A stretch of DNA of 64,000 bases from Pseudofrankia inefficax. Its GTDB lineage: Bacteria; Actinomycetota; Actinomycetes; Frankiales; Frankiaceae. Positions 15,127-36,656 of the stretch are shown here, one piece after another. Where the stretch lies: the NCBI RefSeq assembly GCF_000166135.1, contig NC_014666.1:186001-250000 (forward strand), read 5' to 3'. The notes beneath the pieces were generated by a model that was not told the DNA's origin, did no database searches, and was given only the letters and a program-made list of their open reading frames with translations. Made by a program: the position numbers and the translations under genes. Each line of letters starts with the position of its first letter. Positions within the stretch are counted from its first letter, which is position 1.

Positions 15127-15792
15127 GTGCGCTCCTTCGAGCTGCGACCGACCACACGACAGCCGGTATCCGCATGCTAGCTCCGCCGAGGCATGTCCTC
15201 ACGCATCGAACAGAAACCTACCCGTCAGAACCCGGCCACCTCGGCGCGGACAGGGCCGACAGCGCCGTCGTGCCCCGATGGGTCCAGACGTCTTCCTCGA
15301 CGCCCATCGCAACGGTGACCGAGCAGACATGATTCCGGCATGGCGTTCCGCCGAGAGCGGAAAGGTCCAGGCTCACCTGGCAAGGCCTACCCGCCCGTGC
15401 GGCTACCTACCCGACCGGCCCGAGGAACTGACGCCCCGCGCGCATCGATGATCGCCGGGGCCTGGTGATCATTGTCGGCTCGTGACTTGATCGCCGTTTT
15501 GGCCCTCAGGTGGTCGTAGACGCCGGGCGATACAGCCATGCGAGGGCGGAAACGGCGATCTTGCAGGTGCCGAGGAGGTGCCAGCTCCCACATCCCTCCG
15601 CGCCGCCCGACGGCGCACGGGGCCCGGGCGGCAGATCGGTACGCTGGGTGTTGCCTCGTGGCGCATCGGTGCGCCCGGGAGTCGCCAGGCCGCGACCCAG
15701 GGGCTGCCCGTCCGTGCCATCGCGGCGCCGGCCGGCCTCGGACGGTGGCGCGGTGAGCGACGGTCGCGCGGTGTGAAGAAGGTGCGGGTTCG
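15127..15792. other. 666-bp clpC-lysS divergent intergenic region
   Basis: No convincing gene; the open frames here lack coding features. It contains the first copy of the 72-bp palindromic element (15489-15560). Promoters for clpC (minus) and lysS (plus) must lie here, but I could not pick confident hexamers. Confidence 0.5.
15489..15560. repeat. 72-bp palindromic repeat element, copy A
   Basis: Left arm GATCGCCGTTTTGGCCCTC (15489-15507) pairs with right arm GAGGGCGGAAACGGCGATC (15542-15560) in 17 of 19 positions. A near-identical element lies at 22104-22176: both share the arms, an internal TACAGCCATGCGAGGGC segment and the flank TTG. This is the pattern of a dispersed REP/MITE-like palindrome. 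Confidence 0.8.
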
Positions 15793-17259
15793 ATGACAGC
15801 CGACGAGCCGACGGTCGACGGGGCGGCACGGCTGCCCAGGTCCGGGTACCAGACGGACCTGACGTCGGCGGACGTCCAGGCGGCGCCGGACGGGACGCCG
15901 GCCCGCGTCGCCGGGCGTCTCATGCTCTGGCGCCGGATGGGTGGCCTTGTCTTCGGGACCATCCAGGACCGCGCCGGCCGGGTGCAGATCTCGCTGAACC
16001 GCAACGAACTGGGCGAGGAGACCTACAAGGAGTGGCACAGCTCGGTGAAGGTCGGCGACTTCGTCGGCGTCACCGGCGTCGTCTTCACCACCCGCAAGGG
16101 CGAGCGGACCGTCGGCGCCACCGACTTCGCGGTGCTCAACAAGGCCGTGCGCGCGCTGCCGGACAAGTGGCACGGCATCGCCGACGTCGAGACCCGCTAC
16201 CGGCGCCGCTACCTGGACCTGCTGGCGAACCCCGCGTCCCGGGAGCGGTTCCAGACCAGGTCCCGGGTGATCAGCCGAATCCGGCGCTTCCTCGACGACG
16301 CCGACTTCCTCGAGGTCGAGACGCCCGTCCTCACCGAGGCGGCCTCCGGCGCCGCGGCGCGCCCGTTCATCACCCGGCACAACGCGCTGGGCGAGGACTT
16401 CTACCTGCGCATCTCGCCGGAGACCTACCTCAAGCGGGTCGTCGCCGGCTCGTTCGACCGCGTCTACGAGATCGGCCGGAACTTCCGCAACGAGGGCATC
16501 GATCCCTCGCATCTGCAGGAGTTCACGATGCTGGAGTGGTACGCGGCGTACTGGGACTACCGCGACAACATGCGCTTCGTCCGTGAGCTGATCCTGGCGA
16601 TCCTCGACGACGTGATCGGTTCCCGGACGGTCACCTACGAAGGAACCAAGCTCGACTTCGGCGCGGACTGGCCGGTCATCGACTACCGGGATGCGGTCGA
16701 AAGTCGTACCGGGGTCGATTTGCGGGTCGTGCGCGACTTCGAGACGTTGAAGACGAAGTGCGCCGACCTCGGTCTGGATGTCAGCAAGGCGGCCTCCTAC
16801 GCGGCGCTCGTCGACCTGCTCTACAAGAAGACGGTCCGGCCCGAGCTGGTCCAGCCTTGCTTCCTGGTCGGGCATCCGGTGGAGCTGGTGCCGCTGGCGC
16901 GGCGCAGCGACGACGACCCGACCCGGCTCGACATGTTCCAGGTCGTCGCGAACGGCTGGGAGCTCGTCAAGGCGTACTCGGAGCTGGTCGACCCGGTCGA
17001 CCAGCGCGAGCGGCTGGAGGAGCAGGCCGACCTGCGCGCGGCCGGCGACGACGAGACGATGATGCTCGAAGAGGACTTCATCGAGGCGATGGAGTACGGC
17101 ATGCCCCCCATGTCCGGCCTGGGGCTCGGTATCGACCGGTTCATCGCGCTGATTACGGATGCTCCGACATTGCGCGATGTCGTCCTCTTCCCGTCCATGC
17201 GCGGCGCGAAGGGCCCAGAGTCGACGGAGCCGGCGCAGGCCGCCGGACCGGAAAGCTGA
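15793..17259 (+). CDS. lysS: lysyl-tRNA synthetase, class II
   Basis: 488 residues. N-terminal OB-fold anticodon-binding domain (about 35-150, with ARVAGRLMLWRRMGG), then the class II catalytic core: motif 1 near RSRVISRIRRFLDDADFLEVETP, motif 2 FRNEGIDPSHLQEF, and motif 3 GLGLGIDRFIAL near the C-terminus. It charges tRNA-Lys. The ATG follows a weak GAAGG. It is transcribed opposite to clpC and to coaX/nadC/nadB/panC, whereas in mycobacteria these genes are co-oriented. A hairpin follows the stop codon (17261-17304). Confidence 0.97.
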   Translation: MTADEPTVDGAARLPRSGYQTDLTSADVQAAPDGTPARVAGRLMLWRRMGGLVFGTIQDRAGRVQISLNRNELGEETYKEWHSSVKVGDFVGVTGVVFTTRKGERTVGATDFAVLNKAVRALPDKWHGIADVETRYRRRYLDLLANPASRERFQTRSRVISRIRRFLDDADFLEVETPVLTEAASGAAARPFITRHNALGEDFYLRISPETYLKRVVAGSFDRVYEIGRNFRNEGIDPSHLQEFTMLEWYAAYWDYRDNMRFVRELILAILDDVIGSRTVTYEGTKLDFGADWPVIDYRDAVESRTGVDLRVVRDFETLKTKCADLGLDVSKAASYAALVDLLYKKTVRPELVQPCFLVGHPVELVPLARRSDDDPTRLDMFQVVANGWELVKAYSELVDPVDQRERLEEQADLRAAGDDETMMLEEDFIEAMEYGMPPMSGLGLGIDRFIALITDAPTLRDVVLFPSMRGAKGPESTEPAQAAGPES

Positions 17260-17446: not shown

Positions 17447-18652
17447 ATGCCGGGTGACATCGGTTACTACCTCGTCTATCTGCCGCTCGGGACGATCGGT
17501 CTCGTGCGGTGGCTGTGCTGGCTGGCCCGCCGTATCCCGGCCGCGCTGTACCGGCCGGTGGGTGGCGACCTGCGACTGCCGCTGACCGTCGTCGTGCCCG
17601 TCTACCAGGAGGACCCGGAGGTCTTCACCCGGGCGCTGACGTCCTGGCTGGCGAACGACGTCGACGAGGTCATCCTCGTCATCGACGCCACCGACACCGC
17701 GTGCCGCCGGATCGCGGCCGACTTCCCGGTGACCGTTCTCGTCACCGAAGTCCCTGGAAAACGTGACGCGCTGCGCCGCGGCTGGGAGGCGGCGAGCACC
17801 GAGCTGGTCGCGCTGGTCGACTCGGACACCATCTGGGCGGACGACGTCGCCGCCGAGGTGTGCAAACCGTTCGCCGACCCGGCCGTCGGCGGGGTGGCCA
17901 CCCGGCAGAACGTGTACAACCCGCGCGGTTTTCTGCAGCGGATCACCGACCTGTTCCTCGACTGCCGGTACTTCGACGAGAACGCGGCCCAGTCCGTGAT
18001 GGGCCGCGCGCTGTCCTGCCTGTCGGGTCGTACGGCGATCTACCGGCGCGCTCTGCTCGTCGAGGTCAGCCACGAGTTCATGACCGAGAAGTTCCTCGGG
18101 GTCCAGTGCATGTCCGGCGACGACAAGCGGCTGACCACGCTGCTGCTGGAGCGGGGCCACGCGACCGTGCTCCAGCGCTCGGCCCGGGTCTGGTCCAGCT
18201 TCCCGGACACCTGGCGGCTCTTCTGCCGGCAACGGCTGCGGTGGGCGCGCAACACCTGGCGGTCCGACCTGCGGGCGCTGTCACGGCGCTGGGTGTGGCG
18301 CCGGCCGTTCCTGGCGTTCTCGATGGTCGAGAAGGCGGTCAGCGGTTTCACCCTGCTGGTCTCGCCGACGTTCATGACGCTCGCGCTCCTGCGCCACCAC
18401 TGGTTCTTCTGTGGCTGCCTGGCCTGCTGGTGGTGGCTGAGCCGGGCCGCGAAGGCGCTGCCGCACCTGCGCCGGCAGCCGTCGTCGTTCTTCCTCATCC
18501 CCGGCTGGATTCTCGTCTCCTTCGCGATGTCAGTGATCAAGATAGGCGCGCTGGTGACCGTGCGACGCCAGCGCTGGCTCACCCGCCAGGTGGCGGTCGA
18601 GAACGGGGTGGTGGTGCGCACGGCCGGGGCGGCCGTCGAGGCGATCTCATGA
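17447..18652 (+). CDS. membrane-bound processive family 2 glycosyltransferase (hyaluronan/alginate synthase-like)
   Basis: 401 residues. An N-terminal hydrophobic segment (about 7-27) precedes the GT-A domain: PVYQED (51-56), the metal-binding DSD (D125, D127), SGDDKRL (223-229, catalytic acid region) and QRLRW (262-266), the QxxRW signature of processive beta-glycan synthases. Two to three hydrophobic segments follow (about 295-375). The order matches hyaluronan-, chitin- and alginate-synthase (Alg8) type enzymes that polymerise and extrude a chain across the membrane. The stop overlaps the next start (ATGA), so it is coupled to the beta-helix gene. Substrate unknown; together with the sugar-nucleotide dehydrogenase, uronic acid is a reasonable guess. 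Confidence 0.85.
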   Translation: MPGDIGYYLVYLPLGTIGLVRWLCWLARRIPAALYRPVGGDLRLPLTVVVPVYQEDPEVFTRALTSWLANDVDEVILVIDATDTACRRIAADFPVTVLVTEVPGKRDALRRGWEAASTELVALVDSDTIWADDVAAEVCKPFADPAVGGVATRQNVYNPRGFLQRITDLFLDCRYFDENAAQSVMGRALSCLSGRTAIYRRALLVEVSHEFMTEKFLGVQCMSGDDKRLTTLLLERGHATVLQRSARVWSSFPDTWRLFCRQRLRWARNTWRSDLRALSRRWVWRRPFLAFSMVEKAVSGFTLLVSPTFMTLALLRHHWFFCGCLACWWWLSRAAKALPHLRRQPSSFFLIPGWILVSFAMSVIKIGALVTVRRQRWLTRQVAVENGVVVRTAGAAVEAIS

Positions 18653-20445
18653 GCCGGGCCCGGCGGCCACGGGTGCGCGGCTCCCGGTGGTTCCCGCCGG
18701 GCCCAGCCCGGTCGCTGGCCGCGGCGGCGGTCGTGGCGGGCCTCGTGCTCGCCCCAGCGGCCACCGCGCTGGCGGGGACCGCGCAGGCGCGCGTCCCGCC
18801 GGACCATCGGCTGGTCCTCGGCGCGAGCCGGGTGGACGTCCTGCTCGACGGCCGGCTGGTGAGCCGGGTGGTGCGGCCGCCGGGAGTCGTCGAGATCAGC
18901 TGGCTGGTCGGCCGGGTGCCGGCCGACTGGGTCGCCGGCAGCGGCGACGGGACGGTCCGGCTGAAGGCCGAGCTCAGCCTCGGTCGGGGAGCCGCGCTCG
19001 AGGTCGGGCCGCGCACGAGCCGGCTCGAGCTGGTCGGGGGCGCCGACCCGCGGGCGAGTTCCGGGATCTCCGTCCAGGGCGGCACCCTGCAGCTGCTGGG
19101 GACGACCGTCGCGTCGGTCGACCCGAGGACCGGCCGCCCGGTTCCGGCTGGCCTGCCCGGCCGGCCCTGGCTGTCGGCCGGCGCCGGCGGCCGGGTCGAC
19201 CTGCGCGACAGCCGGGTGACCGGCCTGGGCGACGGGACGACGGGGGCGCGGTCCGCGGGGCTGTTCCTCGGCCCTGGCGCGACCGGCTCGGTGCTGCGGT
19301 CGACCTTCGCCGGCAACGGGATCGGCCTGGTGCTGGCGCAGACCCAGGCGGTCAGCCTGAGCGGGGTCACGGTGACCGGCTCGGTGAGCGACGGACTGCT
19401 GCTGCGCGGCGACGCCGGCACGACGCTGGCCGCGGTGACCAGCACCGACAACGGTCGCGACGGTGTCGTCATCCTCGGCGGCGACGGCCGGCGGCTCGGC
19501 GGTCTGCGCACCGAGCACAACCAGCGGTTCGGCGTGCGCGCGGCCCGGCTGCGCGACCTGGAGCTGACCGGCCTGCGCTCGGTCGACGACACCGAGGGAG
19601 CGCTCCTGCTGGTGGGGTGCCGGTCGTGCGTCCTCGACGATCCGGGGGTCCAGGGCGGTCGGGTCGGGCTGCGGATCGGGGCCGCCAGCGGCCCGGTCCG
19701 GGTCGGCGGTGGCGTCGTGCGGGGAGCGGCGTTCGGCGTCCAGCTGGCGCCCACGGCCGGCCAGGTCACGCTGACCGGCCTGACCGTCAACGGCGCGACC
19801 CGGGTCGGCGTCGAGATCGGTGGCTCCGGGGCCGCGTTGCACGGTGTCCAGGTCAGCCAGGCCGGCGTCGGCGTCCGCGTCTACGGGCAGGCCGCCGGCG
19901 CGTTGCTCGACCAGGTGACGGTGACCGGCGGCCGGGACGGCATCGTCGCCACCGACGGCACCCGTGGGCTGACCGTGACCGGCCCGACCGTGACCGGCGT
20001 CAGCGGCACCGGCCTGCGGCTCGCGTCCACCGGGCTCACCGTGCGGTCCGGCACGGTGCGCGACGCGGCCGTCGGCGCGGCCCTGCCCGGCGCCGGGCAC
20101 CTGGCCGGGTTGCGGATCTCCGGCGTGGCACGCGGGATCTGGGTCGGTGAACGCGGGAGGATCACCGCGCAGGGAGTCGACGTCCTCGCCGCGCGGACCG
20201 GGATCGAGGTCGACCGCGGCGGCACGTTCGACCTGTCCTCGTCGCGGGTGGTGGCGGCCCGCGCGCTGGTCGGCGAGATCGACCGGCATGGAGCGAACAC
20301 CATCGCGCTGCCGCCCTTCCCGTGGTTCGGCCTCGCGGCGCTCGTGGCGGTGCTGCTCGCGTTCGGCCTGGAAGCACTGCACCGGGTCCGGGCTGGCCGG
20401 TCCGGTCCGCCGCGCGCGCCGGACCACGTCCTGAACATCACCTGA
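18649..20445 (+). CDS. secreted, C-terminally anchored right-handed parallel beta-helix protein
   Basis: 598 residues from ATG 18649, which overlaps the GT2 stop codon (ATGA). Signal peptide: Arg-rich head, hydrophobic core at about 24-40, then an ALAGTAQA-type cleavage region. The body consists of repeated 20-25-residue turns rich in G, V, T and D (for example GLRLASTGLTVRSGTVRDAAVG), typical of pectate-lyase/PbH1 beta-helices. A final hydrophobic segment (WFGLAALVAVLLAFGLEAL) followed by basic residues anchors it. No AlgG-type DPHD motif is visible, so it may be a structural or carbohydrate-binding beta-helix instead of an epimerase. Position directly after the synthase suggests it acts on the emerging chain. 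Confidence 0.75.
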   Translation: MSRARRPRVRGSRWFPPGPARSLAAAAVVAGLVLAPAATALAGTAQARVPPDHRLVLGASRVDVLLDGRLVSRVVRPPGVVEISWLVGRVPADWVAGSGDGTVRLKAELSLGRGAALEVGPRTSRLELVGGADPRASSGISVQGGTLQLLGTTVASVDPRTGRPVPAGLPGRPWLSAGAGGRVDLRDSRVTGLGDGTTGARSAGLFLGPGATGSVLRSTFAGNGIGLVLAQTQAVSLSGVTVTGSVSDGLLLRGDAGTTLAAVTSTDNGRDGVVILGGDGRRLGGLRTEHNQRFGVRAARLRDLELTGLRSVDDTEGALLLVGCRSCVLDDPGVQGGRVGLRIGAASGPVRVGGGVVRGAAFGVQLAPTAGQVTLTGLTVNGATRVGVEIGGSGAALHGVQVSQAGVGVRVYGQAAGALLDQVTVTGGRDGIVATDGTRGLTVTGPTVTGVSGTGLRLASTGLTVRSGTVRDAAVGAALPGAGHLAGLRISGVARGIWVGERGRITAQGVDVLAARTGIEVDRGGTFDLSSSRVVAARALVGEIDRHGANTIALPPFPWFGLAALVAVLLAFGLEALHRVRAGRSGPPRAPDHVLNIT

Positions 20446-20461
20446 CCCCCGCCCGCCTTCT

Positions 20462-20485
20462 GTCTGGACGGCCATCCGTCCGGAC
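20462..20485. terminator. 10-bp stem-loop between the two beta-helix genes
   Basis: GTCTGGACGG (20462-20471), loop CCAT, CCGTCCGGAC (20476-20485): 9 Watson-Crick pairs plus one G-T. It lies 17 bp after the stop and about 45 bp before the next start. No U-tract; could attenuate transcription or stabilise mRNA. Confidence 0.4.
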
Positions 20486-20529
20486 CGCGCCGGGCGCCAC
20501 CGCCGGACACACCGGAGATGAGGACAGCT

Positions 20530-21981
20530 GTGTCAGTGACATCGCGGATGACACCGGTCGGCCTTCCGTCGGCCAGGCCGCTGGCCGGGCCACGGCTGGC
20601 CCGCCGCGCCGGGCCGGGTGCGGCGGCGCTCGCGCTCGGCGTGCTCGGGCTGACGGTGGTCGGCGCCCCGGGTGCCGCCCAGGCGACCGCCTGCGCGGGC
20701 CAGGTGCGGTACGCGGCGACCACCAACACCCTCTACCTCACCTCCGGCACGGCGACGCCGACGGAGATCAAGGCGGCCTGCCCGGCGGCGCCGTTGACCC
20801 TCACCAACCCGGCGTCGAACACCTGGGAGCTGGACGCCGATCTGGTCGTCCAGAACGGCGCGAGCCTGCTGCTTCACGGCGCCGCGGCCGGTGGCGACGT
20901 GAACGTGCTGCGGCTGCGCAGCCCCGCCGACGCGCTGAAGACCCATGTCAGCACGATCACCGCCCAGTACGGCGACCTCGACCTGAGCTCGGTGACCGTG
21001 ACGTCCTGGGACCCGGACACGGCGGCGCCCGACACCAACCCGACCCTGCCGGCGGGCGCCCCGGCCGACGCCCGCGGGCGCGCGTTCATCCGGGCGGTGT
21101 CGTACCTGGACGGCTCGACGCCGCGCGAGTCCCGGCTGGACATCGTGAACAGTGACGTCAGCAACCTCGGCTGGTATGACGCCGAAAGCTACGGCGTCTC
21201 CTACAAGGGCCGTGGCTGCGACGCCAGCCACCTCTCGGTCTGCGCGGCGCTGAACGTGTACGGATCCGAGAAGAACAGCCATTTTCACCAGAACTACATG
21301 GGCACGTACCTGTATGACGGCTACCAGCTGGCCTTCACCGGGAACGAGTACGACCACAACGTCATGTACGGGCTCGACGGGCACGACGACTCGGACTATC
21401 TGACGATTACGCACAACCATTTCCACGACAACGGCGACCACGGCGTCATCTGTTCGCAGCGGTGCGACCACCTGACCATCGAGGACAACGAGAGCGACCA
21501 CAACGGGATCCCGCCGTTCGCGTTCCCCGACGACCAGGATGTCTCCGACAACCAGGTGCACGGAATCATGCTGCACCGGGGCATCACGGACTCGGTCGTG
21601 GCGGACAACTACGTCCACGACCAGCCGAACGGCGCCGGCATCGCCGTCTTCGACAGCGTCGGGAACGTGGTCAGGAACAACACCGTCACCCGGGCGAAGT
21701 ACGGACTGCGGTTCAGCGTCGGCGCCACCGGGACACGGCTGCTCGGCAACTCGGTGACCAGCAGCGGCAAGTACGCGGTCTACACCTACAAGGGCAACGA
21801 CGTGCCCACCTACTCGACCGCCTCCGGCCGGCCGACGAACCTCTACTTCGCCGGCAACACGCTGAACAGCGGCTCCGGCGTAGCCCTCCAGATCAACGAC
21901 GCGGACGGGACGACCTTCGCCGGCAACACGATCACCGGAACCACCCAGACCCGCGACAGCACCGGCACCACGTTCAGCTGA
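20530..21981 (+). CDS. AlgG-like secreted parallel beta-helix protein (putative polyuronate C5-epimerase)
   Basis: 483 residues from GTG 20530, which has GAGGA five bases upstream; an in-frame ATG at 20518 would have its ribosome binding site too close. Signal peptide with cleavage near AAQATA. Counting from the upstream ATG 20518, the beta-helix includes YGLDGHD (284-290) followed by DYLTITHN and HGVICSQ (308-314). In Pseudomonas AlgG the catalytic strip reads YG-x-DPHD, then HGII about 20 residues on; here the motif is D-G-H-D at the same relative place. AlgG converts mannuronate to guluronate in the polymer. The Pro-to-Gly change leaves the Asp and His intact. Epimerase activity is inferred. 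Cysteines at several turns suggest extracytoplasmic disulfides. Confidence 0.75.
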   Translation: MSVTSRMTPVGLPSARPLAGPRLARRAGPGAAALALGVLGLTVVGAPGAAQATACAGQVRYAATTNTLYLTSGTATPTEIKAACPAAPLTLTNPASNTWELDADLVVQNGASLLLHGAAAGGDVNVLRLRSPADALKTHVSTITAQYGDLDLSSVTVTSWDPDTAAPDTNPTLPAGAPADARGRAFIRAVSYLDGSTPRESRLDIVNSDVSNLGWYDAESYGVSYKGRGCDASHLSVCAALNVYGSEKNSHFHQNYMGTYLYDGYQLAFTGNEYDHNVMYGLDGHDDSDYLTITHNHFHDNGDHGVICSQRCDHLTIEDNESDHNGIPPFAFPDDQDVSDNQVHGIMLHRGITDSVVADNYVHDQPNGAGIAVFDSVGNVVRNNTVTRAKYGLRFSVGATGTRLLGNSVTSSGKYAVYTYKGNDVPTYSTASGRPTNLYFAGNTLNSGSGVALQINDADGTTFAGNTITGTTQTRDSTGTTFS

Positions 21982-22004
21982 GCCCGGACCCTGGCGGCTT
22001 GGCC

Positions 22005-22068
22005 CTCGGCTGATCTGGCACTTGGCTGATCTGGCTCTTGGCTGGTCTGGCTCTCGGCTGTCGTGCCG
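22005..22068. repeat. 16-bp tandem repeat, three good copies plus one degenerate
   Basis: CTCGGCTGATCTGGCA (22005-22020), CTTGGCTGATCTGGCT (22021-22036), CTTGGCTGGTCTGGCT (22037-22052), then a diverged copy starting CTCGGCTG. It lies just after the AlgG-like gene and about 35 bp before palindromic element copy B. Confidence 0.75.
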
Positions 22069-22103
22069 CCTCCGGGCAAGGCGCGCCGTTCCGGAGTTCC
22101 CAT

Positions 22104-22176
22104 GATCGCCGTTTCGGCCCTCGCATGGTCATAAAAGCGCTGCGGTTACAGCCATGCGAGGGCGAAGACGGCGATC
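22104..22176. repeat. 73-bp palindromic repeat element, copy B
   Basis: The left arm GATCGCCGTTTCGGCCCTC is extended by GCATGG (22104-22128) and pairs with 22152-22176 at 22 of 25 positions. Same family as 15489-15560, including the internal TTACAGCCATGCGAGGGC segment and trailing TTG. Located between the convergent AlgG-like and PL7 genes, where it could also act as a bidirectional terminator. Confidence 0.8.
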
Positions 22177-22220
22177 TTGTCGGCCTTGGGACGAGGCGAA
22201 CCTCGTCAGATGCGACGCGG

Positions 22221-23114
22221 CTAGCTGTGGGAGACGCGGAGGTCGTAGAGGGCGACCTCGCCGTAGGCATCCGGTGGCTCGCCCTTGCTCAGGTTGGACT
22301 GGGTGTAGCAGCCGGCCTTGAAGTACAGGCCGCCCTCGCGCAGCGGGAACGTGACCGGGGCCTTGTCGTTGTAGTAGACGCTGACCAGTCCGCCGGCGGC
22401 GACCATGCGGATCCTGAAGACCGTGCCGAGCACGTAGTGGGTGTTCAGGTCCCCGACGTTCTGGCCGTCGTGCTCGACGTACAGCCGGCTGCCGTCGAGG
22501 CGGATCATGGCGACGTAGCCGTTCGCGTCGTGGATCTGCCCGGCGACCATCTCGGGCTTCCTGGTCGGCAGATGTGTGATCGCCTCTCGGATGCTCATCG
22601 TGTTGGTGCCCGTGGTGCTCGACCAGGCGGCGGGGACCCGGTCCGCGGACATCTCGCGCAGCTCGGAGCGCGGGTAGGAGGAGCCGGGGGTGGTCGCGCC
22701 GTTGACGGGGGCGCGGAAATGCACCCCCTTGTTGTCGCCCGTGGGCGTGAAGTACGGCGCCATCGAGAAGGTCCTCAGCGCCGGCCGGCTGATCTGGGCG
22801 GCCTCCCGGCCGTTGGTGGAGTCGGCGCCGGGCGCGCTGGTGACCGGCAGCGTCAGCTTCCACTTCGACAGGTCCAGGATCTGGGCCGGAACCGGCGCGG
22901 TCGAGGAGCCCGCGGCGGCCGCGCCCACGCCGCCGGCCGCGGGTGACGGTGCCGGCGCCTGAGGCGCCAGAGCCGCCGGCAGCGGGCCGCCGGCGGGCGC
23001 GACCGGGCGGGGCGCCGCGCCCTGCTGGCTAGGTGGCAGCCGCGGCGCCGGGAGGCAGGCGGTGAGTGTCGCCATCCCGAGCACGACCCCGAGCACGCCA
23101 CGTGCCGGTCTCAT
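22221..23114 (-). CDS. PL7-family alginate lyase-like lipoprotein
   Basis: 297 residues. The lipoprotein signal ends in TLTAC (Cys20), then an Ala/Pro-rich linker to about 78. The catalytic domain opens with LSKWKLTLPV (82-91) and carries all three PL7 signatures: RSELRE (149-154), QIH (193-195, catalytic His region) and YFKAGCYTQ (264-272, catalytic Tyr region). PL7 enzymes cleave alginate-type beta-1,4-linked uronates by beta-elimination at the cell surface. It is transcribed convergent to the AlgG-like gene and divergent from the dehydrogenase operon across a 573-bp gap. A lyase beside a synthase may trim or release polymer, as AlgL does for alginate. The exact uronate is not proven. Confidence 0.85.
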   Translation of the reverse strand: MRPARGVLGVVLGMATLTACLPAPRLPPSQQGAAPRPVAPAGGPLPAALAPQAPAPSPAAGGVGAAAAGSSTAPVPAQILDLSKWKLTLPVTSAPGADSTNGREAAQISRPALRTFSMAPYFTPTGDNKGVHFRAPVNGATTPGSSYPRSELREMSADRVPAAWSSTTGTNTMSIREAITHLPTRKPEMVAGQIHDANGYVAMIRLDGSRLYVEHDGQNVGDLNTHYVLGTVFRIRMVAAGGLVSVYYNDKAPVTFPLREGGLYFKAGCYTQSNLSKGEPPDAYGEVALYDLRVSHS

Positions 23115-23687
23115 CTGTCACAACCTCCGGATGCTGCGATCACACGGTCGTCCGTGCGCGGCCCGCCGATTGTGGGCCGACCGGCGGGGCCAGCCCGCCT
23201 CTCGCCGAAGGGTGTGTCCCACCGGTGTCCATGCTGATGGGCTGGCATGTCGTTGTTGACAGCGCCGAATTTGGGCGACGCGGCGCGCGAATGTAACCCG
23301 GCTACGTATGTTTTCGTCCGCTAAGTGACCGGCGGGCGACTTGGATCACATTTACGTCTAGTGTGTCATCTTTTCCTTATGGCCTTTTGGCCGCCGACCT
23401 GAACAATGCGATGATTTTGACCTCCTGATTCACGGACTTGTTACCAGCGGAATCCCGACGATCCCGCTCCGAGCCATGTAATCTCATGACTGCGCGGCGT
23501 ATCCGAGTGAGTGACCCGCGCGCGCCAAATCGGGAAATACCGGCGACCTGCCATGCGATGGGGTCGCGGTTCTACGGCAGCCAAACCCACTCCGCTGGCC
23601 GTTGCCCGAGCAGCAGCATCCGCCCGGCCTGGCGCCACCCATGACGACCGGCGCGCCGCGGGACAAGCGCGTCCGAGGAGTGAACCA
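23115..23687. promoter_or_regulatory. 573-bp AT-richer divergent control region (PL7 gene versus dehydrogenase operon)
   Basis: The stretch 23280-23480 is visibly poorer in GC than the surroundings, with runs such as ATGTTTTCGTCCGC, ATCTTTTCCTTATGG and GATTTTGACC. GGCC-TTTT-GGCC at about 23387-23398 is a small perfect hairpin. A TTGACC at 23417-23422 could be a -35 box, but no good -10 follows at 16-18 bp. No supportable gene. It should hold both promoters. Confidence 0.45.
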
Positions 23688-24668
23688 GTGAGAATATTCA
23701 TCATCGGGTCCGGTGTCGTCGGCACGGCCACCGGCCGTGGATTCATAGAAGCCGGCCACCGCGTCACCTTCGTAGACGTCTCTCCCCAGCGCGTCGAGGA
23801 CCTCACCGCCCGGGGCCTGGACGCTCGCGCCCGGATTGACCTCGCCACCGAGGAAGCGGCATACATTTTTCTGACGCTGCCGACGCCGAACGATGGCACG
23901 CGCTATGACCTCACCGCGTTCCTGGAGGGCACCCGGGCGGTCGGCCGGGCGCTGCGCGAGGCCGATGCGGTGCACACCGTCGTTGTCCGTTCGACGGTTA
24001 CGCCGGGGACCACAGAGGGTCTCGTCGGCCCCGTTCTGGAACGTGAGTCCGGGCTGCGTCAGGACGAGGGCTTCCTGTTGGCGAGCAACCCGGAGTTCCT
24101 GCGCGCGGCCTCCGCCGTAGCGGACTTCCGCTGGCCCCGGATGACCGTCGTCGGCGCCCGCAACAGGCGCGTCCGCGAGCGGCTGGTCGAGCTGTTCACC
24201 CCGTTCGGCGGCGAACTCCGGGTCTTTGCCGAGCCGATGACCGCCGAGTTCATCAAGTGCGCGCACAACATCTTCAACGCCACCAAGATCTCGTTCTGGA
24301 ACGAGATGCACGCCGTCGCGCAGCGGGCCGGTCTGGACCTGGCCGAGATCGCCGAAACGGTGGCCCGCTCCGCCGAGGCGTCGTTCAACCCCACCTACGG
24401 GATCCGCGGCGGCGCGCCCTACGGCGGCGCCTGCCTGCCGAAGGACACCAAGGCCTTCCTCGGGTTCGCCGACACGCTCGACATCGACATGCCGCTGCTG
24501 CGCGCGGTCGTCGAGGTGAACGACCGGCTCGTCGGGAGCCCTTCGGCCGTCCCGGTGCCCGCCGCGTTGGTGCCCGCCGCGATGACCGGTCCGCCGCGGA
24601 TAGAGATTCCCGAGCAGCCGACCGGCGACCGGGTCCCCGCCAGGGCCGCGGAAAGCCCGGTGCGATGA
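23688..24668 (+). CDS. UDP-glucose/GDP-mannose 6-dehydrogenase family protein lacking the C-terminal domain
   Basis: 326 residues from GTG 23688, with GAGGAG seven bases upstream. NAD-binding Rossmann start FIIGSGVVGTATG (4-16), TLPTPND (63-69), STVTPGTT (102-109), SNPEFLR (133-139), the central helical domain with AEFIKCAHNIFNATK (186-200) and catalytic GGACLPKDT (Cys249). The family oxidises UDP-glucose to UDP-glucuronate or GDP-mannose to GDP-mannuronate. After VVEVNDRL (about 284-291) the sequence turns into a Pro/Ala-rich tail and stops, so the usual third domain of about 100 residues, which completes nucleotide-sugar binding, is absent. The 64 bp before the next gene cannot encode it. 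First gene of the operon running to 30887. Confidence 0.85.
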   Translation: MRIFIIGSGVVGTATGRGFIEAGHRVTFVDVSPQRVEDLTARGLDARARIDLATEEAAYIFLTLPTPNDGTRYDLTAFLEGTRAVGRALREADAVHTVVVRSTVTPGTTEGLVGPVLERESGLRQDEGFLLASNPEFLRAASAVADFRWPRMTVVGARNRRVRERLVELFTPFGGELRVFAEPMTAEFIKCAHNIFNATKISFWNEMHAVAQRAGLDLAEIAETVARSAEASFNPTYGIRGGAPYGGACLPKDTKAFLGFADTLDIDMPLLRAVVEVNDRLVGSPSAVPVPAALVPAAMTGPPRIEIPEQPTGDRVPARAAESPVR

Positions 24669-24732
24669 CCCCCGTCGCCTACGGCCCGACGGCTCGCCCG
24701 ACAGCCGGCCCGGCTCGTCCGGGAGGCGGCCG

Positions 24733-25998
24733 ATGAAGCACTGGCTTCCGTGGCTGGGCCTGGTCGCCTTCCTGCGCCCGCTGATCGAGGTGTTCATCCT
24801 CGCGATCGGGGAGTGGTGGTTCCACGCCGGCTTCAAGGAGAACCCCGGCCTGTTCAGCCGCTACGTCATCCAGATCACGACGGTGGGCCGCGAGCAGGAC
24901 CGGGTCAACGAGATCATCCGCGAGATCCGCGACTACCCGATGACGATGAACTACCAGATCTGGGTGGTGAACGAGCCGGGCAACGACGACGTCTACCCGG
25001 ATGCCGACCGCGTCGTCACGGTGCCCGTCGAGTTCGAGTGCGTCGCCCAGTACAAGGCCCGGGCCCTCGAGTACAGCCGGCTGGTCCGCCAGCAGCTCGG
25101 TTACAACCAGGGCGACACGAAGATCACATTCCTGGACGACGACACGTCGCCGACCTGGGAGTACCTGGAAACCGCCTTCGCCGGCGACTACGACATCTGC
25201 CAGGGCGTGACGGCGCCGCGGATCGGTTACGGCGTCCGGCCGTTCAGCCACTTCCTGCTCAGCCACGTCGACGACCTGCGGTTCCACAACTGCATGACGT
25301 ACTGCTCGTCGTTCCAGGGCATCTTCGGCAAGCCGCTGTTCGTGCACGGCGAAGGCCTGACGATCACCGGTTACACCGAGGAGACCGTCACCTGGAACTG
25401 GCGAATCTTCGCCTCGGAGGACCTCACCTTCGGCTGCAACGCGGCGGCGAAGGGGCTGCGCTGGGGCTTCTTCCACGAGTACATCCAGCTGACCTCGCCG
25501 TGGACCTGGCAGGCCTACTTCAAGCAGCGCCGCCGGTGGATGTGGGGCAACATCCACGCGATCGTCAACCGGGACGTGCTGCCGAGGGGCGCCGCGATCC
25601 GGATCGCGATCCGCTACTTCCTCAGCCTGTTCACCTTCTTCGCCTCCGGAACCTCGGTGGCGCTCATCCTCACGCACACGATCGACCTGCCCGGCTGGGC
25701 GCATTCCCTGTTCTGGTGCTCGCTGGTGATCTGGCTGGTGAACTTCGCGCTCTCCGGCTGGGTGAACGCCGGCCTGCGCACGGCGGAGCAGACCACCGCG
25801 CAGTTCTGGTGGAACCGGGTGACGCAGACGGCGGCGGCGGTGGTGCTGTCCCCGGTCACCGCGACCTTCACCATCGTCGCGCTGATCGTGACGCTCTACA
25901 TGGGCAACCCGCGCAGCTTCGAGGTGATCGCCAAGACGGCGGCGACCAGCGGGCAACGTGAGTCCAGCCGGCCGCTCGTCCGGGGGGCCGCCTCGTGA
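24733..25998 (+). CDS. membrane family 2 glycosyltransferase with QxxRW motif (Egghead/synthase-like)
   Basis: 421 residues. N-terminal hydrophobic segment (about 7-30), then a GT-A domain with FLDDDTS (DDD 135-137), the ASED acid motif (SED 228-230) and QRRRW (265-269). C-terminal hydrophobic segments (about 285-305, 318-340 and 360-395) complete a synthase-like topology. The ITTVGREQDRVNE opening and overall layout recall Egghead-type beta-mannosyltransferases as well as alginate/cellulose-type synthases. The sequence is otherwise unlike the GT2 at 17447, so the locus has two distinct membrane GT2 enzymes. It starts 64 bp after the dehydrogenase and overlaps the next start (GTGA), implying translational coupling. 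Confidence 0.82.
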   Translation: MKHWLPWLGLVAFLRPLIEVFILAIGEWWFHAGFKENPGLFSRYVIQITTVGREQDRVNEIIREIRDYPMTMNYQIWVVNEPGNDDVYPDADRVVTVPVEFECVAQYKARALEYSRLVRQQLGYNQGDTKITFLDDDTSPTWEYLETAFAGDYDICQGVTAPRIGYGVRPFSHFLLSHVDDLRFHNCMTYCSSFQGIFGKPLFVHGEGLTITGYTEETVTWNWRIFASEDLTFGCNAAAKGLRWGFFHEYIQLTSPWTWQAYFKQRRRWMWGNIHAIVNRDVLPRGAAIRIAIRYFLSLFTFFASGTSVALILTHTIDLPGWAHSLFWCSLVIWLVNFALSGWVNAGLRTAEQTTAQFWWNRVTQTAAAVVLSPVTATFTIVALIVTLYMGNPRSFEVIAKTAATSGQRESSRPLVRGAAS

Positions 25999-27518
25999 CC
26001 GGGCCGACCAGGCGGTCTCGCGACGATGAGGACCGCCACGCCCAGGAAACCGTGCGAGTCCCGTCCCCGCGGTCAGGCGGGGCCGACGAGGTCGGCGGCG
26101 GGGCGACGAGCGCGGGCGGCGCCCGCCGGGCGGCCGCGCGCGCCGCCAGGGCGACCGCCGCCGGCACCCGCGGTCGCGGCGTGTACCTGCTGGTCACGGT
26201 GATGACCCTGGTCGCCGCGGCGGTCCTGAGCGTGACCGTCGGGCGCCACTACCGGGCGCTCACCTCGACGTCCGAGTTCTTCCACCGGCATGCCTACACG
26301 CCGTCCTACGACCCGATCAGCAACGTCGAGCGGGGCCTGCAGCCGAACACCATTGACACCAGGACCAGCAAACCGGACCCGTCGATCAGGGCGATCTCGA
26401 TCAGCCCGACCGGCGTGGACCTGCTGGTCGGCGGCCAGGTCCACCACAGCTTCCCCCAGCAGGCGTCGGTCAACGGGCTGCCCCAGCTGGCGTCGATCGT
26501 CAACGATCCGGACTGGCTGGAGTACGACGGGCAGGGCCATGCGGTGCTGCACGCCGCGCTGGTCGTCGTCGGCCAGACGGCGTTCACGATCGACGCGCCC
26601 GTCACGAGCCTGGTCCTGGAGTCCCGCCGCGGTGTCCTGCTCGGCGCGGAGAGCGGAACGCTGGCGATCGACGGGGTGAGCATCCGGCCCAGCGCACCGA
26701 ACCCGGACCCCGGCCAGCGCGCGCTCGACCAGCGACAGCCGTTCATCGTCGCCGCCAGCCGGTCTCAGCTGATCATCTCCCACAGCCACCTCAGCACCCT
26801 CGGCCGGGACTGGAACAGCTCCTACGGCGTCTCCTGGACCGACGGTGCCAGCGGAAGCATCACCAACAGCGAGGTCGACCACACGTTCATCGCGACCTAC
26901 ACCGATGCCGCGCACGACGTGACGATCGCCAACAACTGGCTGCACGACAACGCGCTCTACGGCGTCGACCCGCACTCGAACTCGACCCGGATCGTGGTCC
27001 GGCAGAACCTCAGCGAGCACAACGGCCGGCACGGGATCATCTTCTCGGACAACGTCACCGACAGCGTCGTCGAGGACAACGTCGCTCGGGACAACCACCT
27101 GAACGGCATCATGATGGACGCCCAGAGCACCGGTAACCGCATCGTCGGGAACTCCGTCACCGGGAACCGAGGTGACGGGCTGGTGCTCGCCTCGTCGCCG
27201 CACAACGTGCTGACCAACAACACGGTCACGGACAACCGGATCGGCGTCATGGTCCGCGGCGCGGACGGGGACGAGGGCGTGACCCTGCGCGGGAACGAGA
27301 TACGCGGCAACCAGCTCGCGTCACAGGGGATCTCGCTGGCGGGCAACAAGGTCAGCGGCAACGGCACCACCTGGCGACCGCGGGTGCTCGCCGTGATCTG
27401 GTCCCTGGTGCCGGTCACGATCCTGCTGCTGATCGGTTTCACCAGGACGCTGCGCCGGCGCCGTGGTCGCGCCGTCGGCCGCGGCCACCGACCCTCGGCG
27501 GTGACCATCGGTGCCTAG
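25995..27518 (+). CDS. AlgG-like membrane-anchored parallel beta-helix protein (putative polyuronate C5-epimerase)
   Basis: 507 residues; GTG start overlaps the GT2 stop. Polar N-terminus, membrane anchor at about 62-81, an extracytoplasmic beta-helix, and a second membrane segment at about 467-487 (AVIWSLVPVTILLLIGF). The helix carries YGVDPH (322-327) and RHGIIFSDN (345-353), matching the catalytic strip of AlgG-type mannuronan epimerases (YG-x-DPHD then HGII), except that the final Asp of DPHD is Ser. Later turns such as NRIVGNSVTGN and HNVLTNNTVTDN are canonical NosD/AlgG repeats. Double anchoring at the outer membrane face beside the synthase suggests epimerisation or guidance of the growing chain. 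Whether the DPHS variant is catalytic is unknown. Confidence 0.78.
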   Translation: MTGPTRRSRDDEDRHAQETVRVPSPRSGGADEVGGGATSAGGARRAAARAARATAAGTRGRGVYLLVTVMTLVAAAVLSVTVGRHYRALTSTSEFFHRHAYTPSYDPISNVERGLQPNTIDTRTSKPDPSIRAISISPTGVDLLVGGQVHHSFPQQASVNGLPQLASIVNDPDWLEYDGQGHAVLHAALVVVGQTAFTIDAPVTSLVLESRRGVLLGAESGTLAIDGVSIRPSAPNPDPGQRALDQRQPFIVAASRSQLIISHSHLSTLGRDWNSSYGVSWTDGASGSITNSEVDHTFIATYTDAAHDVTIANNWLHDNALYGVDPHSNSTRIVVRQNLSEHNGRHGIIFSDNVTDSVVEDNVARDNHLNGIMMDAQSTGNRIVGNSVTGNRGDGLVLASSPHNVLTNNTVTDNRIGVMVRGADGDEGVTLRGNEIRGNQLASQGISLAGNKVSGNGTTWRPRVLAVIWSLVPVTILLLIGFTRTLRRRRGRAVGRGHRPSAVTIGA

Positions 27519-29847
27519 GCCCGCGGACCTCCGCCTGTTCGCGCCGTCCATCCCGCCGGCCCGCGGCGCGGACGTCACGGAGCGGGGGGCTGCCCGCGGC
27601 GCGGACAGCCAGCCGGCCCCGGACGTCCTGGTCGGCCCGGTCCCGGCGGCGGCTGGCGAGCCGGCTGAGGCCGAGCGAGCCGGTGACCAGGGTGCGCCGG
27701 AGGCGGACACCGGCGCCGGCCGGCGGGCTCGGGAGTTCCGGCCCGACATCGAGGGCCTGCGAGCCGTCGCGGTGCTGCTGGTGGTCCTGGGGCATTCGAA
27801 CCTCGGCGTCCCCGGCGGCTTCGTCGGCGTCGACGTCTTCTTCGTGATCTCCGGGTTCCTCATCACCCAGCAGCTGCTGCGCGAGCGGGCGACCCGGGGG
27901 CGGATCTCGTTCCGTCGCTTCTACGCCCGAAGGGCCCGCCGGATCCTGCCGGCGGCGGCGGTGGTGATCGTGGCGACGGTGCTCGCCTCCTGGGCGTGGC
28001 TGTCGCCGCTGCGCGTGCGGGACATCGCCTGGGACGCCGTGTACTCCGCGTTCTCGGCCGTGAACCTCAGGCTGGCCCACAGCGGCACCGACTACTTCCA
28101 GTCCGCCGCGCCGCCGTCGCCGCTGCAGCACTACTGGTCGCTCGCGGTGGAGGAGCAGTTCTACCTCGTCTGGCCGTTGCTGCTCACGCTCGTGACCCTG
28201 GCCGCCACCGCGGTCACGGCCCGGCGGCGCCGCTCGGCCCCGCCCGAGGCCGGCGACGAGGGCCGGCCCGTGCCCGGCACCCGACCGGTGGTGCTCGTGC
28301 TGCTCACGGTCGTCGCCGGCTCGCTGCTGCTCAGCGTGGTGGTCACGGCCCGGTCGGCCCCCTGGGCCTATTTCGGCGGTCACACCCGGGCGTGGGAACT
28401 GGCACTGGGCGCGCTGGTCGCCGTCTGGGCGCCCGCGTTCGAGCGGATGGGACGGGCGCTGTCGAGCCAGCTCAGCTGGCTGGGCCTGGCCGGGATCGCC
28501 GTCGCCGCCTTCGCCTACGGCGACAGCACGCCCTACCCGGGCACCGCCGCGCTGCTGCCCGTCGGGGCGGCCGCGCTGGTGGTCGCCGGTGGCTGCGCGG
28601 CGCCTCGGAAGGGGGCCGAACTGCTGCTGGGGCGCGCGCCGCTGCGGCTGGTCGGCCGGCTCAGCTACTCCTGGTACCTGTGGCACTGGCCGGTGCTGCG
28701 GATCTGGCCCGAGGCGACCGGCCGCCCGTTCCACACCGGCGAGAAGCTGGCGGCGCTCGGGCTGTCCCTGGTGCTCGCCTGGCTCACCTACCTGCTGGTG
28801 GAGAACCCGGTCAGGACCCGGCCGCTGCTGGTCCGCCGGCCGTCGCTCGGCCTGGGCCTTGGCGGGGCGCTGGCCGCGGCGGCCGCCGGCCTGGCGCTGC
28901 TGGTCGCCGCCGTCGACACGGTGCCCGGCGGGCGGTCCAGCGGGCCACTGCGGGCGCTGGACGCGACCGGCGCGGCCCCCACCGCGCCCACGGCCGCCGG
29001 GATCACGACGCAGCCCAGGTTCGTGGGCGTCGGCACGAGCTCGTTGACGCCGCTGATCACCCAGTCGGCCCGGCTGCGCGCCCTGCCGACCAGCCTGCAG
29101 CCGTCCCTCGCGAAGGCCGGGGACGACCTCGGCGAGAACAAGTGCCGGACGCCGATCACCTCCAGTACGCCGATCGACTGCGTCGCCGGTGACCCGAACG
29201 GGTCCTCGACCGTCGTGCTGTTCGGCGACTCGCACGCCAACCAGTGGTTCAACGCCCTGGACGCGATCGCGAAGGAGTCGCACTGGCGGCTCGTCCCGTA
29301 CACCAAGGGCGGGTGCCCACCGCCGTACTACCCGAACTTCTACCTGGACGAGCTCAAGCGGGTCTACACCGAGTGCTATGCCTGGCGGGACGCCGTGTTC
29401 GCGCGCATCGCGGCGCTGCGCCCGGGCCTGGTCGTGATCGGCTCGGAGGCGCGGGTTCAGGCGAAGGACGCCGGGCCCGGCGCGACGACCGATCTCGTCC
29501 GGACGCTGCGGGCTACCGGCGCGAAGGTCGCGTTCCTGGAGGACACGCCGTTCCCCGGCTTCCAGGTGCCGGACTGCCTGGCCAGCCACCCTTCGAACGT
29601 GACGTCCTGCATGGTGACCATCCAGAAGTCGAAGATCGCCGAGCCGCAGCGCGAGATCGAGGACCGCGGCGCGCTGGCCGGCGGCGCGACGCTGATCGAC
29701 CCGTTGCCCTGGCTGTGCGTGCGCGACCAGTGCCCGCCGATCATCGGCAACGCCGTCGTCTACGCGGACAACAGCCATCTCACCGGCACGTACTCGACCC
29801 TGCTCGCGCCCTTCCTCGGCCCAGCCCTGCGGGCCGTCCTGCGATGA
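27511..29847 (+). CDS. acyltransferase-3 / SGNH fusion, polysaccharide O-acetyltransferase (OafA type)
   Basis: 778 residues; GTG start overlaps the previous gene by 8 bp. After about 75 polar residues comes the acyltransferase-3 domain with ten or so membrane segments, beginning REFRPDIEGLRAVAV and containing the conserved GHSN His (H95) and FFVISGFLI. The C-terminal extracytoplasmic SGNH domain has GDSH (572-575) and the catalytic DNSH dyad (D753, H756). AT3-SGNH proteins move acetyl (or similar) groups across the membrane and attach them to surface polysaccharide. In this operon it would play the part of AlgI/AlgJ/AlgX in alginate O-acetylation. It overlaps the lyase start by ATGA. Confidence 0.9.
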   Translation: MPRPADLRLFAPSIPPARGADVTERGAARGADSQPAPDVLVGPVPAAAGEPAEAERAGDQGAPEADTGAGRRAREFRPDIEGLRAVAVLLVVLGHSNLGVPGGFVGVDVFFVISGFLITQQLLRERATRGRISFRRFYARRARRILPAAAVVIVATVLASWAWLSPLRVRDIAWDAVYSAFSAVNLRLAHSGTDYFQSAAPPSPLQHYWSLAVEEQFYLVWPLLLTLVTLAATAVTARRRRSAPPEAGDEGRPVPGTRPVVLVLLTVVAGSLLLSVVVTARSAPWAYFGGHTRAWELALGALVAVWAPAFERMGRALSSQLSWLGLAGIAVAAFAYGDSTPYPGTAALLPVGAAALVVAGGCAAPRKGAELLLGRAPLRLVGRLSYSWYLWHWPVLRIWPEATGRPFHTGEKLAALGLSLVLAWLTYLLVENPVRTRPLLVRRPSLGLGLGGALAAAAAGLALLVAAVDTVPGGRSSGPLRALDATGAAPTAPTAAGITTQPRFVGVGTSSLTPLITQSARLRALPTSLQPSLAKAGDDLGENKCRTPITSSTPIDCVAGDPNGSSTVVLFGDSHANQWFNALDAIAKESHWRLVPYTKGGCPPPYYPNFYLDELKRVYTECYAWRDAVFARIAALRPGLVVIGSEARVQAKDAGPGATTDLVRTLRATGAKVAFLEDTPFPGFQVPDCLASHPSNVTSCMVTIQKSKIAEPQREIEDRGALAGGATLIDPLPWLCVRDQCPPIIGNAVVYADNSHLTGTYSTLLAPFLGPALRAVLR

Positions 29848-30887
29848 CCGGGCCGACCCGGCCGGCGGGACGCGGGTACCAGGCCCGGACTCGCGGCTCG
29901 CGGCGCGACCGGATGGTCCGCGGCGTGACCCTGGTCGTGCTGCCCGCGCTCGCCGGGCTGGCCGCCTGCTCCGGCGGCCGGCCACAGGGCGGCCACGGTG
30001 GCTCGGCGCCGACGCCCGCGCCGACGGCGTCGCGCTCCGGGCCGGCCGCCGCCGACGAGCCGACCGCGCCGACCTCGCCGCTGGCCCGGTTCTTCGGGGA
30101 CGACCTGGTCATGCGCTCCCGTGGCTCGTTCAACCTGGACAAGGTGCGCCTGGTCTCCAGCGGTGACCGGTGCGTGCCGACGTACCTGCGGGTCCGCTAC
30201 CCGGCCGGCTCGGCCAGCCAGCTCTCGGTCCGCAACGAGGACGCGCCGACCGGTGGGGCCCAGGCCTACCTGCTGCTGAAGTCCGGCCCGACCGACATCC
30301 TGCATCTGAGCTACCGTGTCCGGTTCCCGGCCGGCTTCCAGTTCAACAAGGGCGGGAAACTGCCTGGACTATTCGGCGGCGACCACGTGGCGGGCGGCAA
30401 CATCCCGGACGGCTCGAACGGCCTGTCCACCCGCTACATGTGGCGGGCCGGGGGCGCTGGCGAGGTGTACGCCTACCTACCGTCCTCGCAGGTGCACGGC
30501 ACCAACATCGGCACCGGTAGCTGGAGTTTTCCGCCGGGTCAGTGGGTGACGATGCAGCAGCGGGTTCGTCTGAACACCCCGGGCCAGGCCGACGGGTCGA
30601 TCACGGTCTGGATGGACGGCCGGCAGGCCCTTCGAGTCGACAACCTGCTGTTCCGGGACAGCGGGACGCTCCAGATCGACGGCCTGTTCTTCTCCACCTT
30701 CTTCGGCGGCGGCGACACCACCTGGGCAAGCCCCACCGACCAGTACGCCGACTTCGCCGACTTCCAGGTCTCCCCGAACTACATCAACGACACGATGCCC
30801 GCCGGGTGCGCGCCTCCGGGCCCGACGATCACCCCGAGCCTGTGGCCATCCAGCGAGACTTCCGACGGCTCAGGGCCAGACCAGTAG
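29844..30887 (+). CDS. PL14-like polysaccharide lyase lipoprotein
   Basis: 347 residues from ATG 29844, overlapping the previous stop. The lipoprotein signal ends LAGLAACS (Cys42); a Pro/Ala-rich linker runs to about 80. The beta-jelly-roll domain shows YRVRFPAGFQFNKGGKLPG, LSTRYMWR, EVYAYLPSSQ, GSWSFPPGQWVTM and DGLFFSTFFGG, the conserved series of the PL14 group (alginate/glucuronan-type lyases). Family members cleave polyuronates by beta-elimination. As last gene of the dehydrogenase-GT2-epimerase-acetyltransferase operon it probably trims or releases the product at the cell surface. Assignment to PL14 rests on recognised sequence blocks; specificity (mannuronate, guluronate or glucuronate) is open. 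Confidence 0.78.
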   Translation: MTGPTRPAGRGYQARTRGSRRDRMVRGVTLVVLPALAGLAACSGGRPQGGHGGSAPTPAPTASRSGPAAADEPTAPTSPLARFFGDDLVMRSRGSFNLDKVRLVSSGDRCVPTYLRVRYPAGSASQLSVRNEDAPTGGAQAYLLLKSGPTDILHLSYRVRFPAGFQFNKGGKLPGLFGGDHVAGGNIPDGSNGLSTRYMWRAGGAGEVYAYLPSSQVHGTNIGTGSWSFPPGQWVTMQQRVRLNTPGQADGSITVWMDGRQALRVDNLLFRDSGTLQIDGLFFSTFFGGGDTTWASPTDQYADFADFQVSPNYINDTMPAGCAPPGPTITPSLWPSSETSDGSGPDQ

Positions 30888-34494: not shown

Positions 34495-34719
34495 GGTCTC
34501 GGAGCGTAGCTGCCCAGCTCCCGGTCGGCCGTCGCGTAGCGGCCATGAGGAGGCACGTCCCGTGTCGCGTGCGAGACCGCGCGGCGTGTCTCCCGGACAT
34601 AGCGGACATGTCAGCGCGAGGTCTGCTATCTGGCCGGGACCTCCAGCATCGCCGTGCATGGCGGCCGCGGATGGCCGTCAGGTGGCGGCCCCTGGGGCCG
34701 CGCTGTCCACGCTGGCGGG

Positions 34720-36402: not shown

Positions 36403-36656
36403 GACCGCTGCTCCCGCGCGTCGCGCGTGATGTCTCCGACTCGGGGGCCTGCGAGCGCGTCCTGGCGGCGAGGCTGGCCGTCTGGCGGGAGCAGCCACAC
36501 AACCACGCGTAATCCTCCGCTCGGCGCCGACTGGTCCAACGCCGCGGGTTCCGCACTGATCCGTCCGTGCGCGGTGTCGCGACGTCTGCCCTGAAAGTAC
36601 CAACACCGCCTATCCCGCTCTTTGCGGGCGGTCGCGGGGCCCGAACCGACGTCCTG

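Follow-up and report, generated by a model that had tools for sequence, protein, structure and literature searches.

Gene content of the locus

The window analysed here, 64,000 nucleotides from the genome of the soil actinomycete Pseudofrankia inefficax (positions 186001-250000 of 8,815,781 bases), contains between its positions 17447 and 30887 a group of genes for which a role in making and tailoring a polyuronate has strong support. As judged from the sequence, the locus probably makes and tailors an extracellular, mannuronate-based polymer resembling alginate. Genes were called from codon-position GC, Pfam matches and translations, and families were assigned by Pfam, NCBIfam and PDB searches.

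The core of the locus lies on the plus strand. It starts with a putative GDP-mannose 6-dehydrogenase of 326 amino acids (23688-24668), a short nucleoside diphosphate sugar dehydrogenase with PF03721 and PF00984 and without PF03720, followed by the membrane synthase GT2b of glycosyltransferase family 2 (24733-25998; motifs DDD, SED and QRRRW). Downstream are a putative AlgG-like C5-epimerase with the motif YGVDPH (25995-27518; NF038177, 97.8 bits), in which hydrophobic segments can be read at both ends, an AT3-SGNH O-acyltransferase (27511-29847; PF01757, 105 bits; PF19040, 115 bits) and a PL14 lyase with the lipobox LAAC (29844-30887; PF21294, 200.5 bits against a cut-off of 27). An earlier note on this DNA, made without database searches, had described these genes as one tightly coupled operon from 23688 to 30887. 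The three overlaps it listed are correct (GTGA at 25995, 8 bp at 27511-27518, ATGA at 29844), whereas the dehydrogenase and GT2b genes are separated by 64 bp.

A second set of genes lies to the left. On the plus strand, GT2a (17447-18652; PF13641, 110 bits; DSD, GDD and QRLRW), a membrane synthase similar to NodC, hyaluronan synthase and Alg8, is coupled through ATGA to the beta-helix protein BH1 (18649-20445; PF13229, 53.4 bits), which lacks YGxDPH. It is followed by BH2 (20518-21981; PF13229, 94 bits; NF038177, 55.7 bits), an AlgG-like beta-helix with the variant YGLDGH and an N-terminus that reads as signal-like. On the minus strand lies a PL7 alginate lyase with the lipobox LTAC (22221-23114), which exceeds the cut-off of PF08787 with 132.6 bits and carries the three family motifs RSELR, QIH and YFKAGCYTQ. 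An open reading frame at 18687-20150 (P0002) was dismissed as a shadow frame, being arginine-rich and devoid of family matches.

Most of the parts list in the earlier note was thus recovered by family searches: two QxxRW synthases, two AlgG-like beta-helices and a third one (both NF038177 scores being far below the cut-off of 700), an AT3-SGNH O-acetyltransferase, the PL7 lyase with its three motifs and a PL14-like lyase. The dehydrogenase also belongs to the proposed family, with the correction that the C-terminal domain for nucleotide binding (PF03720) is absent. Together with the neighbourhood comparison below, these searches give good support to the note's polyuronate synthase-and-tailoring system without outer-membrane parts.

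The locus is bordered on the left by genes for a Clp-family ATPase and a lysine-tRNA ligase (LysS; 12616-17259), the latter also being found at the border in three other strains (L012, L013 and L018). Just past the operon, the opposite strand encodes a GDSL lipase and a PF02397 sugar transferase (33571-36606).

Conservation within and beyond the Frankiaceae

A search of the order with GT2b matched 10 of 35 genomes, all from two genera: four of eight in the genus of the window, all six of a second genus, with loci named as Parafrankia or Frankia EI5c, and none of the 21 genomes from the five remaining genera. The same ten were the only matches among 393 genomes of the class. Named loci encoding a GT2b relative come from Frankia sp. 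AgB1.9, Frankia nepalensis, Frankia sp. EI5c and three Parafrankia strains. The order dehydrogenase, GT2b, AlgG-like epimerase is kept in all ten Frankiaceae genomes, and the acyltransferase and PL14 genes follow in nine; the tenth contig (L013) ends before them. Within the operon neighbourhood, to which these counts refer, GT2a-BH1-BH2 adjoins the operon in only two of the ten (the window and L012) and PL7 in three (these two and L013), and in L018 lysS directly adjoins the dehydrogenase gene. Thus, the 13.4 kb that had been taken as one unit consist of a conserved operon and an accessory module (17447-21981). In the Parafrankia group (L014-L017, L020 and L021) the short dehydrogenases carry long low-complexity tails, and a similar end peptide lies just over the GT2b start.

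Larger samples of 374 to 396 genomes of the class and phylum were searched with profiles, scoring about four to five candidates per genome, so that misses are possible. In the phylum sample the AlgG-like profile matched five of 396 genomes, the own genome included, and the GT2b profile three. In all five loci examined outside the Frankiaceae (L038-L042) a short dehydrogenase (287, 310, 312, 340 and 307 amino acids, respectively) lies near a family 2 synthase, which is of the GT2b type in L038 and L039 and of the GT2a type in L040, L041 and L042. In L040 the GT2a gene is split by a frameshift in a draft assembly, and in L042 the beta-helix epimerase and GT2a are fused in one frame of 814 amino acids. 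In L038, the gene after the AlgG-like epimerase belongs to family GH113 (10898-11959).

In the reverse direction, the short-dehydrogenase profile gave 11 matches at E ≤ 1e-62 among 374 class genomes, namely the ten Frankiaceae and one further genome, G210. Its locus (L072) holds relatives of GT2a (73% identity), BH1 (35%) and PL14 (54%) around the dehydrogenase, all on one strand. BH1 relatives sit after GT2a both here (35-36% identity) and in L041 (25%). The L072 operon is continued, 27 bp past the PL14 frame, by a nucleotidyltransferase frame of 255 amino acids. Among NCBIfam models it scores best with mannose-1-phosphate guanylyltransferase (125.5 bits, below the cut-off of 440), and its top three PDB matches are all mannose-1-phosphate guanylyltransferases (113.8, 109.9 and 109.7 bits), compared with 73.7 bits for a UTP-glucose-1-phosphate enzyme.

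Taken together, all 16 loci with a short dehydrogenase, which represent seven families of the phylum, have GT2a or GT2b beside it. Twelve of these loci were reached via GT2b itself; free tests of the association are the dehydrogenase in L038-L042, found with AlgG or GT2b profiles, the synthase in L040-L042, found with the AlgG profile, and, for L072, which was reached through the dehydrogenase profile, GT2a, beta-helix and PL14. A YGxDPH-type epimerase is present in at least 13 of the 16 loci, one copy reading YGVDXH, and was not found in the frames of L039, L041 and L072; PL14 is present in at least 11. Both counts are lower bounds because some contigs are cut. The earlier note had suggested neighbourhood conservation as a check, and the preserved order in ten genomes of two genera together with recurrence in six more families excludes chance.

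Enzymes and the probable polymer

PF03720 was absent from all 16 short copies of the dehydrogenase in profile searches with E up to 1, whereas it was present in Rhizobium AlgD, in the dehydrogenase of locus L044 and in each of the three remaining dehydrogenases encoded by the window's genome. The short copies measure 287-393 amino acids, the longer ones having low-complexity tails. A structure model of the 326-residue protein reached a mean predicted local distance difference test score (pLDDT) of 83.5, with blocks at or above 63 up to residue 280 apart from a dip at 241-250; the last 40 residues (287-326) scored below 50 and are disordered in the model. In the dehydrogenase tree and the BLAST comparison, which used ten short copies (five near-duplicates were left out and L072 was found later), the ten clustered in a single clade (99/96), separate from both AlgD and UDP-glucose dehydrogenase (UGDH). 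All ten scored higher against Rhizobium AlgD (105-155 bits) than against three full-length UGDHs (53-105 bits), and AlgD was the top match in the PDB profile search (219.9 versus 204.9 bits). Diagnostic columns and fold comparison were also tried for distinguishing GDP-mannose from UDP-glucose enzymes, and neither decides.

The Ectocarpus dehydrogenase is said to have no C-terminal domain. Excerpts of the kelp study PMC4782291 report that SjGMD1 and SjGMD2, of 320 and 315 amino acids, convert GDP-mannose to GDP-mannuronate; their active motif GGxCLPKDV spans residues 259-267 and 256-264, respectively. Compared with the 436 amino acids of P. aeruginosa AlgD, these lengths and motif positions suggest that the kelp enzymes have no C-terminal domain either. 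Among the kelp residues that differ from bacterial enzymes, the same excerpts list Val17, Ala146, Val147 and Pro257, of which our mapping covers Val17 and Pro257. The residue taken as Val17 (in GxGVVG) is present in 16 of 16 short dehydrogenases and that taken as Pro257 (two before GGxCLPKD) in 13 of 16. Conversely, the proline is absent from six of six AlgD and UGDH references, and Tyr or His takes the valine position in the five in which the motif was found. GDP-mannose would be the donor sugar, and the window would encode a putative short GDP-mannose dehydrogenase of a kind known so far, in the literature consulted, from brown algae.

The two synthases are of two types. In a tree built without L012, L040 (whose gene is split), the incomplete L045 and the later additions L059, L060 and L072, GT2a grouped with the Rhizobium synthase in the Alg8 position (90/98, not starred), and hhalign related the two (probability 98, E 2.6e-13). 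Topology tests rejected neither GT2a without Alg8 (p 0.21) nor Alg8 with GT2b (p 0.18), and by BLAST GT2a is nearer to NodC. GT2b forms a long branch of its own; its profile showed no relation to Alg8, its only match to solved sequences was spurious (E 0.21), and none was found among plasmid sequences. A dairy-source Lactococcus plasmid (L050, 1684-4101) carries a nucleotide sugar dehydrogenase and a family 2 synthase between IS6-family transposases, with a product that we would guess to be hyaluronan-like.

Among solved proteins, the epimerase and both lyases are most similar to alginate enzymes. The AlgG-like profile aligned with P. syringae AlgG over 284 positions (4ozy, E 1.5e-35; 4nk6, 1.9e-35). 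Catalysis by AlgG involves the His of DPHD and a Tyr, with an Arg as neutraliser, as described in extracts of a review (PMC4444821). Tyr and His are kept in the AlgG-like proteins, the fourth residue of DPHD being Ser or Thr (DPHS in the window), whereas at the position of the arginine in the Rhizobium AlgGs all 13 epimerases compared have Asp, Glu or Lys, so that a different charge neutralisation, perhaps by calcium, is possible. PL14 is closest to the alginate lyase 5gmt (E 1e-34), with which GGKLPGLFGG, LSTRYMWR and VYAYLP align. PL7 matched AlgAT5 (E 8e-61) and a polyguluronate lyase (9e-55). According to the same review extracts, the cluster of every alginate-producing bacterium known includes genes for a lyase and AlgG.

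We suggest the following pathway for a mannuronate-based polymer. The kelp-sized dehydrogenase would oxidise GDP-mannose to GDP-mannuronate in the cytoplasm, and GT2b, in this strain also GT2a, would polymerise it and move the chain across the membrane; here the fold is supported and the donor is presumed. Outside the membrane, the anchored AlgG-like beta-helix may epimerise residues, a role in keeping with its family and YGxDPH motif. The AT3-SGNH enzyme would then O-acylate the chain, and the lipoprotein lyases PL14 and PL7 could trim or clear it. Outer-membrane parts are not needed in a Gram-positive cell.

The earlier note had left the polymer open. The evidence now leans towards mannuronate, short of proof, because the epimerase is nearest to AlgG, PL14 and PL7 are nearest to alginate lyases, the dehydrogenase is as short as that of kelp and L072 holds a guanylyltransferase-like gene. 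Some observations weigh on the other side. The dehydrogenase trees do not settle whether AlgD or UGDH is nearer, and among NCBIfam equivalogs the short dehydrogenase matches a UDP-glucose dehydrogenase best. Moreover, GT2a-like genes occur without a nearby short dehydrogenase: no partner was found in Streptomyces BHT-5-2 (L043) and Embleya (L045), a beta-helix and no dehydrogenase in L059, and a full UGDH in Curtobacterium (pTCL; L044) and L060. A motif scan for YGxD(P/G)H followed by HG(I/V)(I/V) found it in no frame of these five loci. Hence, the link to the short dehydrogenase holds for GT2b and the nearer GT2a group, not for every GT2a-like gene. L060 (1551-7184) and L044 (8923-13494) combine a GT2a-like synthase and full-length UGDH with a beta-helix or glycosyl hydrolase and perhaps represent a second, glucuronate-type branch; one genome (G404) has both branches.

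A glucuronan or mixed glucuronate polymer would arise if the dehydrogenase acted on UDP-glucose, both synthases used UDP-glucuronate, the epimerase converted glucuronate to iduronate and PL14 were a glucuronan lyase. Besides the equivalog match and the full UGDHs of L044 and L060, such a product would suit the solved neighbours of GT2a, which are hyaluronan synthases, and the membership in PL14 of vAL-1, which cuts glucuronan (match E 8e-11). On the other hand, L044 and L060 show neither the YGxDPH epimerase nor a short dehydrogenase, two full-length UGDH-like genes are already present elsewhere in the genome, and both lyases score far better against alginate lyases, the glucuronan lyase 7nde reaching only E 1e-5 with PL7. 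With the guanylyltransferase-like gene of L072 also pointing to mannose, we regard a glucuronate polymer as unlikely.

That the conserved GT2b operon adjoins an independent GT2a module for a different polymer is very improbable in our estimation. The rare adjacency of module and operon, the position of lysS in L018 and the lack of BLAST similarity above background between GT2a and GT2b would fit such an arrangement, but both synthase types recur with the same dehydrogenase clade and PL14 accompanies either. Still further from what we expect is a degradative or defensive locus whose lyases and beta-helices attack foreign alginate while the synthases serve wall synthesis. PL7 is indeed divergently transcribed and often missing beside the operon; yet the coupled operon joins a dehydrogenase and a membrane synthase to an anchored epimerase and an acyltransferase, a biosynthetic combination, and degradation was rejected because no uptake or catabolic families were detected among the window genes scanned.

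A mannuronate-based product thus remains the better-supported reading. The compact gene set for making, modifying, acylating and trimming a chain, along with the kelp-type short dehydrogenase, suggests that alginate production may extend to Gram-positive bacteria. According to the review extracts (PMC4444821), brown algae and some Pseudomonas and Azotobacter have yielded alginate. Among the open-licence PMC papers listed (titles and beginnings of abstracts), we saw none that describes an operon of this kind from an actinomycete, although homologues are noted in the literature on algal gene transfer. If true, a Gram-positive pathway that uses other synthases and a minimal dehydrogenase, and in which epimerase and synthase can be fused in a single protein, would broaden both alginate biology and the supply of enzymes. 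Frankia and Parafrankia are plant-root actinomycetes, a setting in which a surface polyuronate could matter.

An excerpted review traces the alginate-specific steps of brown algae to an ancestral actinobacterium (PMC8307928). Passages of PMC11468063 describe the closest bacterial relatives of the algal mannuronan C5-epimerase (ManC5-E) as actinobacterial (about 30% identity), mention one actinobacterial cluster about 30% identical to both GDP-mannose dehydrogenase (GMD) and UGDH, and regard no algal mannuronan synthase as proven. The full operon with its brown-algal-type dehydrogenase might be an extant relative of the actinobacterial donor of alginate synthesis to brown algae, GT2a or GT2b marking the sequence type of the algal synthase, and loci combining GT2a with a DPH-less beta-helix (L041 and L072) might be natural makers of unepimerised mannuronan, of which none has been found in nature according to the review extracts (PMC4444821). 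We consider this transfer scenario rather doubtful and give it lower odds because of adverse statements in the same body of literature: algal GMDs are closer to a Woesebacteriota protein (40%) and algal family 2 synthases have no homology to Alg8 (PMC11468063, in part), and a further actinobacterial origin claimed in the 2010 work that proposed the transfer, the one for mannitol-1-phosphatase, was later revised (PMC5778160, in part). For the questions of algal gene origin and of the algal mannuronan synthase, the locus nevertheless offers concrete bacterial candidates.

Comparison with known alginate systems

With the brown algal pathway, compared through published descriptions rather than algal sequences, the locus shares a dehydrogenase of the same length class, its 326 amino acids being close to the algal 315-320 with little past the central domain, as well as the kelp Val and Pro marks and a DPH-type epimerase. 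NodC and hyaluronan synthase share with it the build of a membrane GT-A synthase with Q..RW, but in the tree GT2a falls with Alg8 (not starred), and the partner genes differ. The Curtobacterium-type loci with full UGDH (L044 and L060) share a GT2a-like synthase and, in L060, a beta-helix, and differ in the C-terminal domain of their UGDH and in that no YGxDPH epimerase was found.

As reference for the Pseudomonas/Azotobacter-type operon we used clusters on the Rhizobium plasmids pRGM101b and pRPC (L046, 98-18317; L047, 1919-18583), two of six matching Rhizobium plasmid records. Both encode AlgD, a family 2 synthase, PilZ and AlgG, L046 also shows GMP/ManC and ALGX, and the PLSDB table lists no genes there. 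The actinomycete locus likewise has a dehydrogenase followed by a family 2 synthase, an AlgG-homologous C5-epimerase, SGNH-type acyl transfer and a lyase within the cluster. In contrast to the Pseudomonas type, its dehydrogenase is short whereas AlgD is full-length with a C-terminal domain, AT3-SGNH stands in place of AlgI/J/F/X, the lyases are PL14 and PL7 instead of PL5, outer-membrane parts are absent and no relationship between GT2b and Alg8 was detected; a scan of the locus proteins found no PL5, AlgI/J/X or PilZ (Alg44) protein, the last being present in the Rhizobium reference. In membership the locus falls outside the alginate operons of the Pseudomonas type, although it works on a similar principle.

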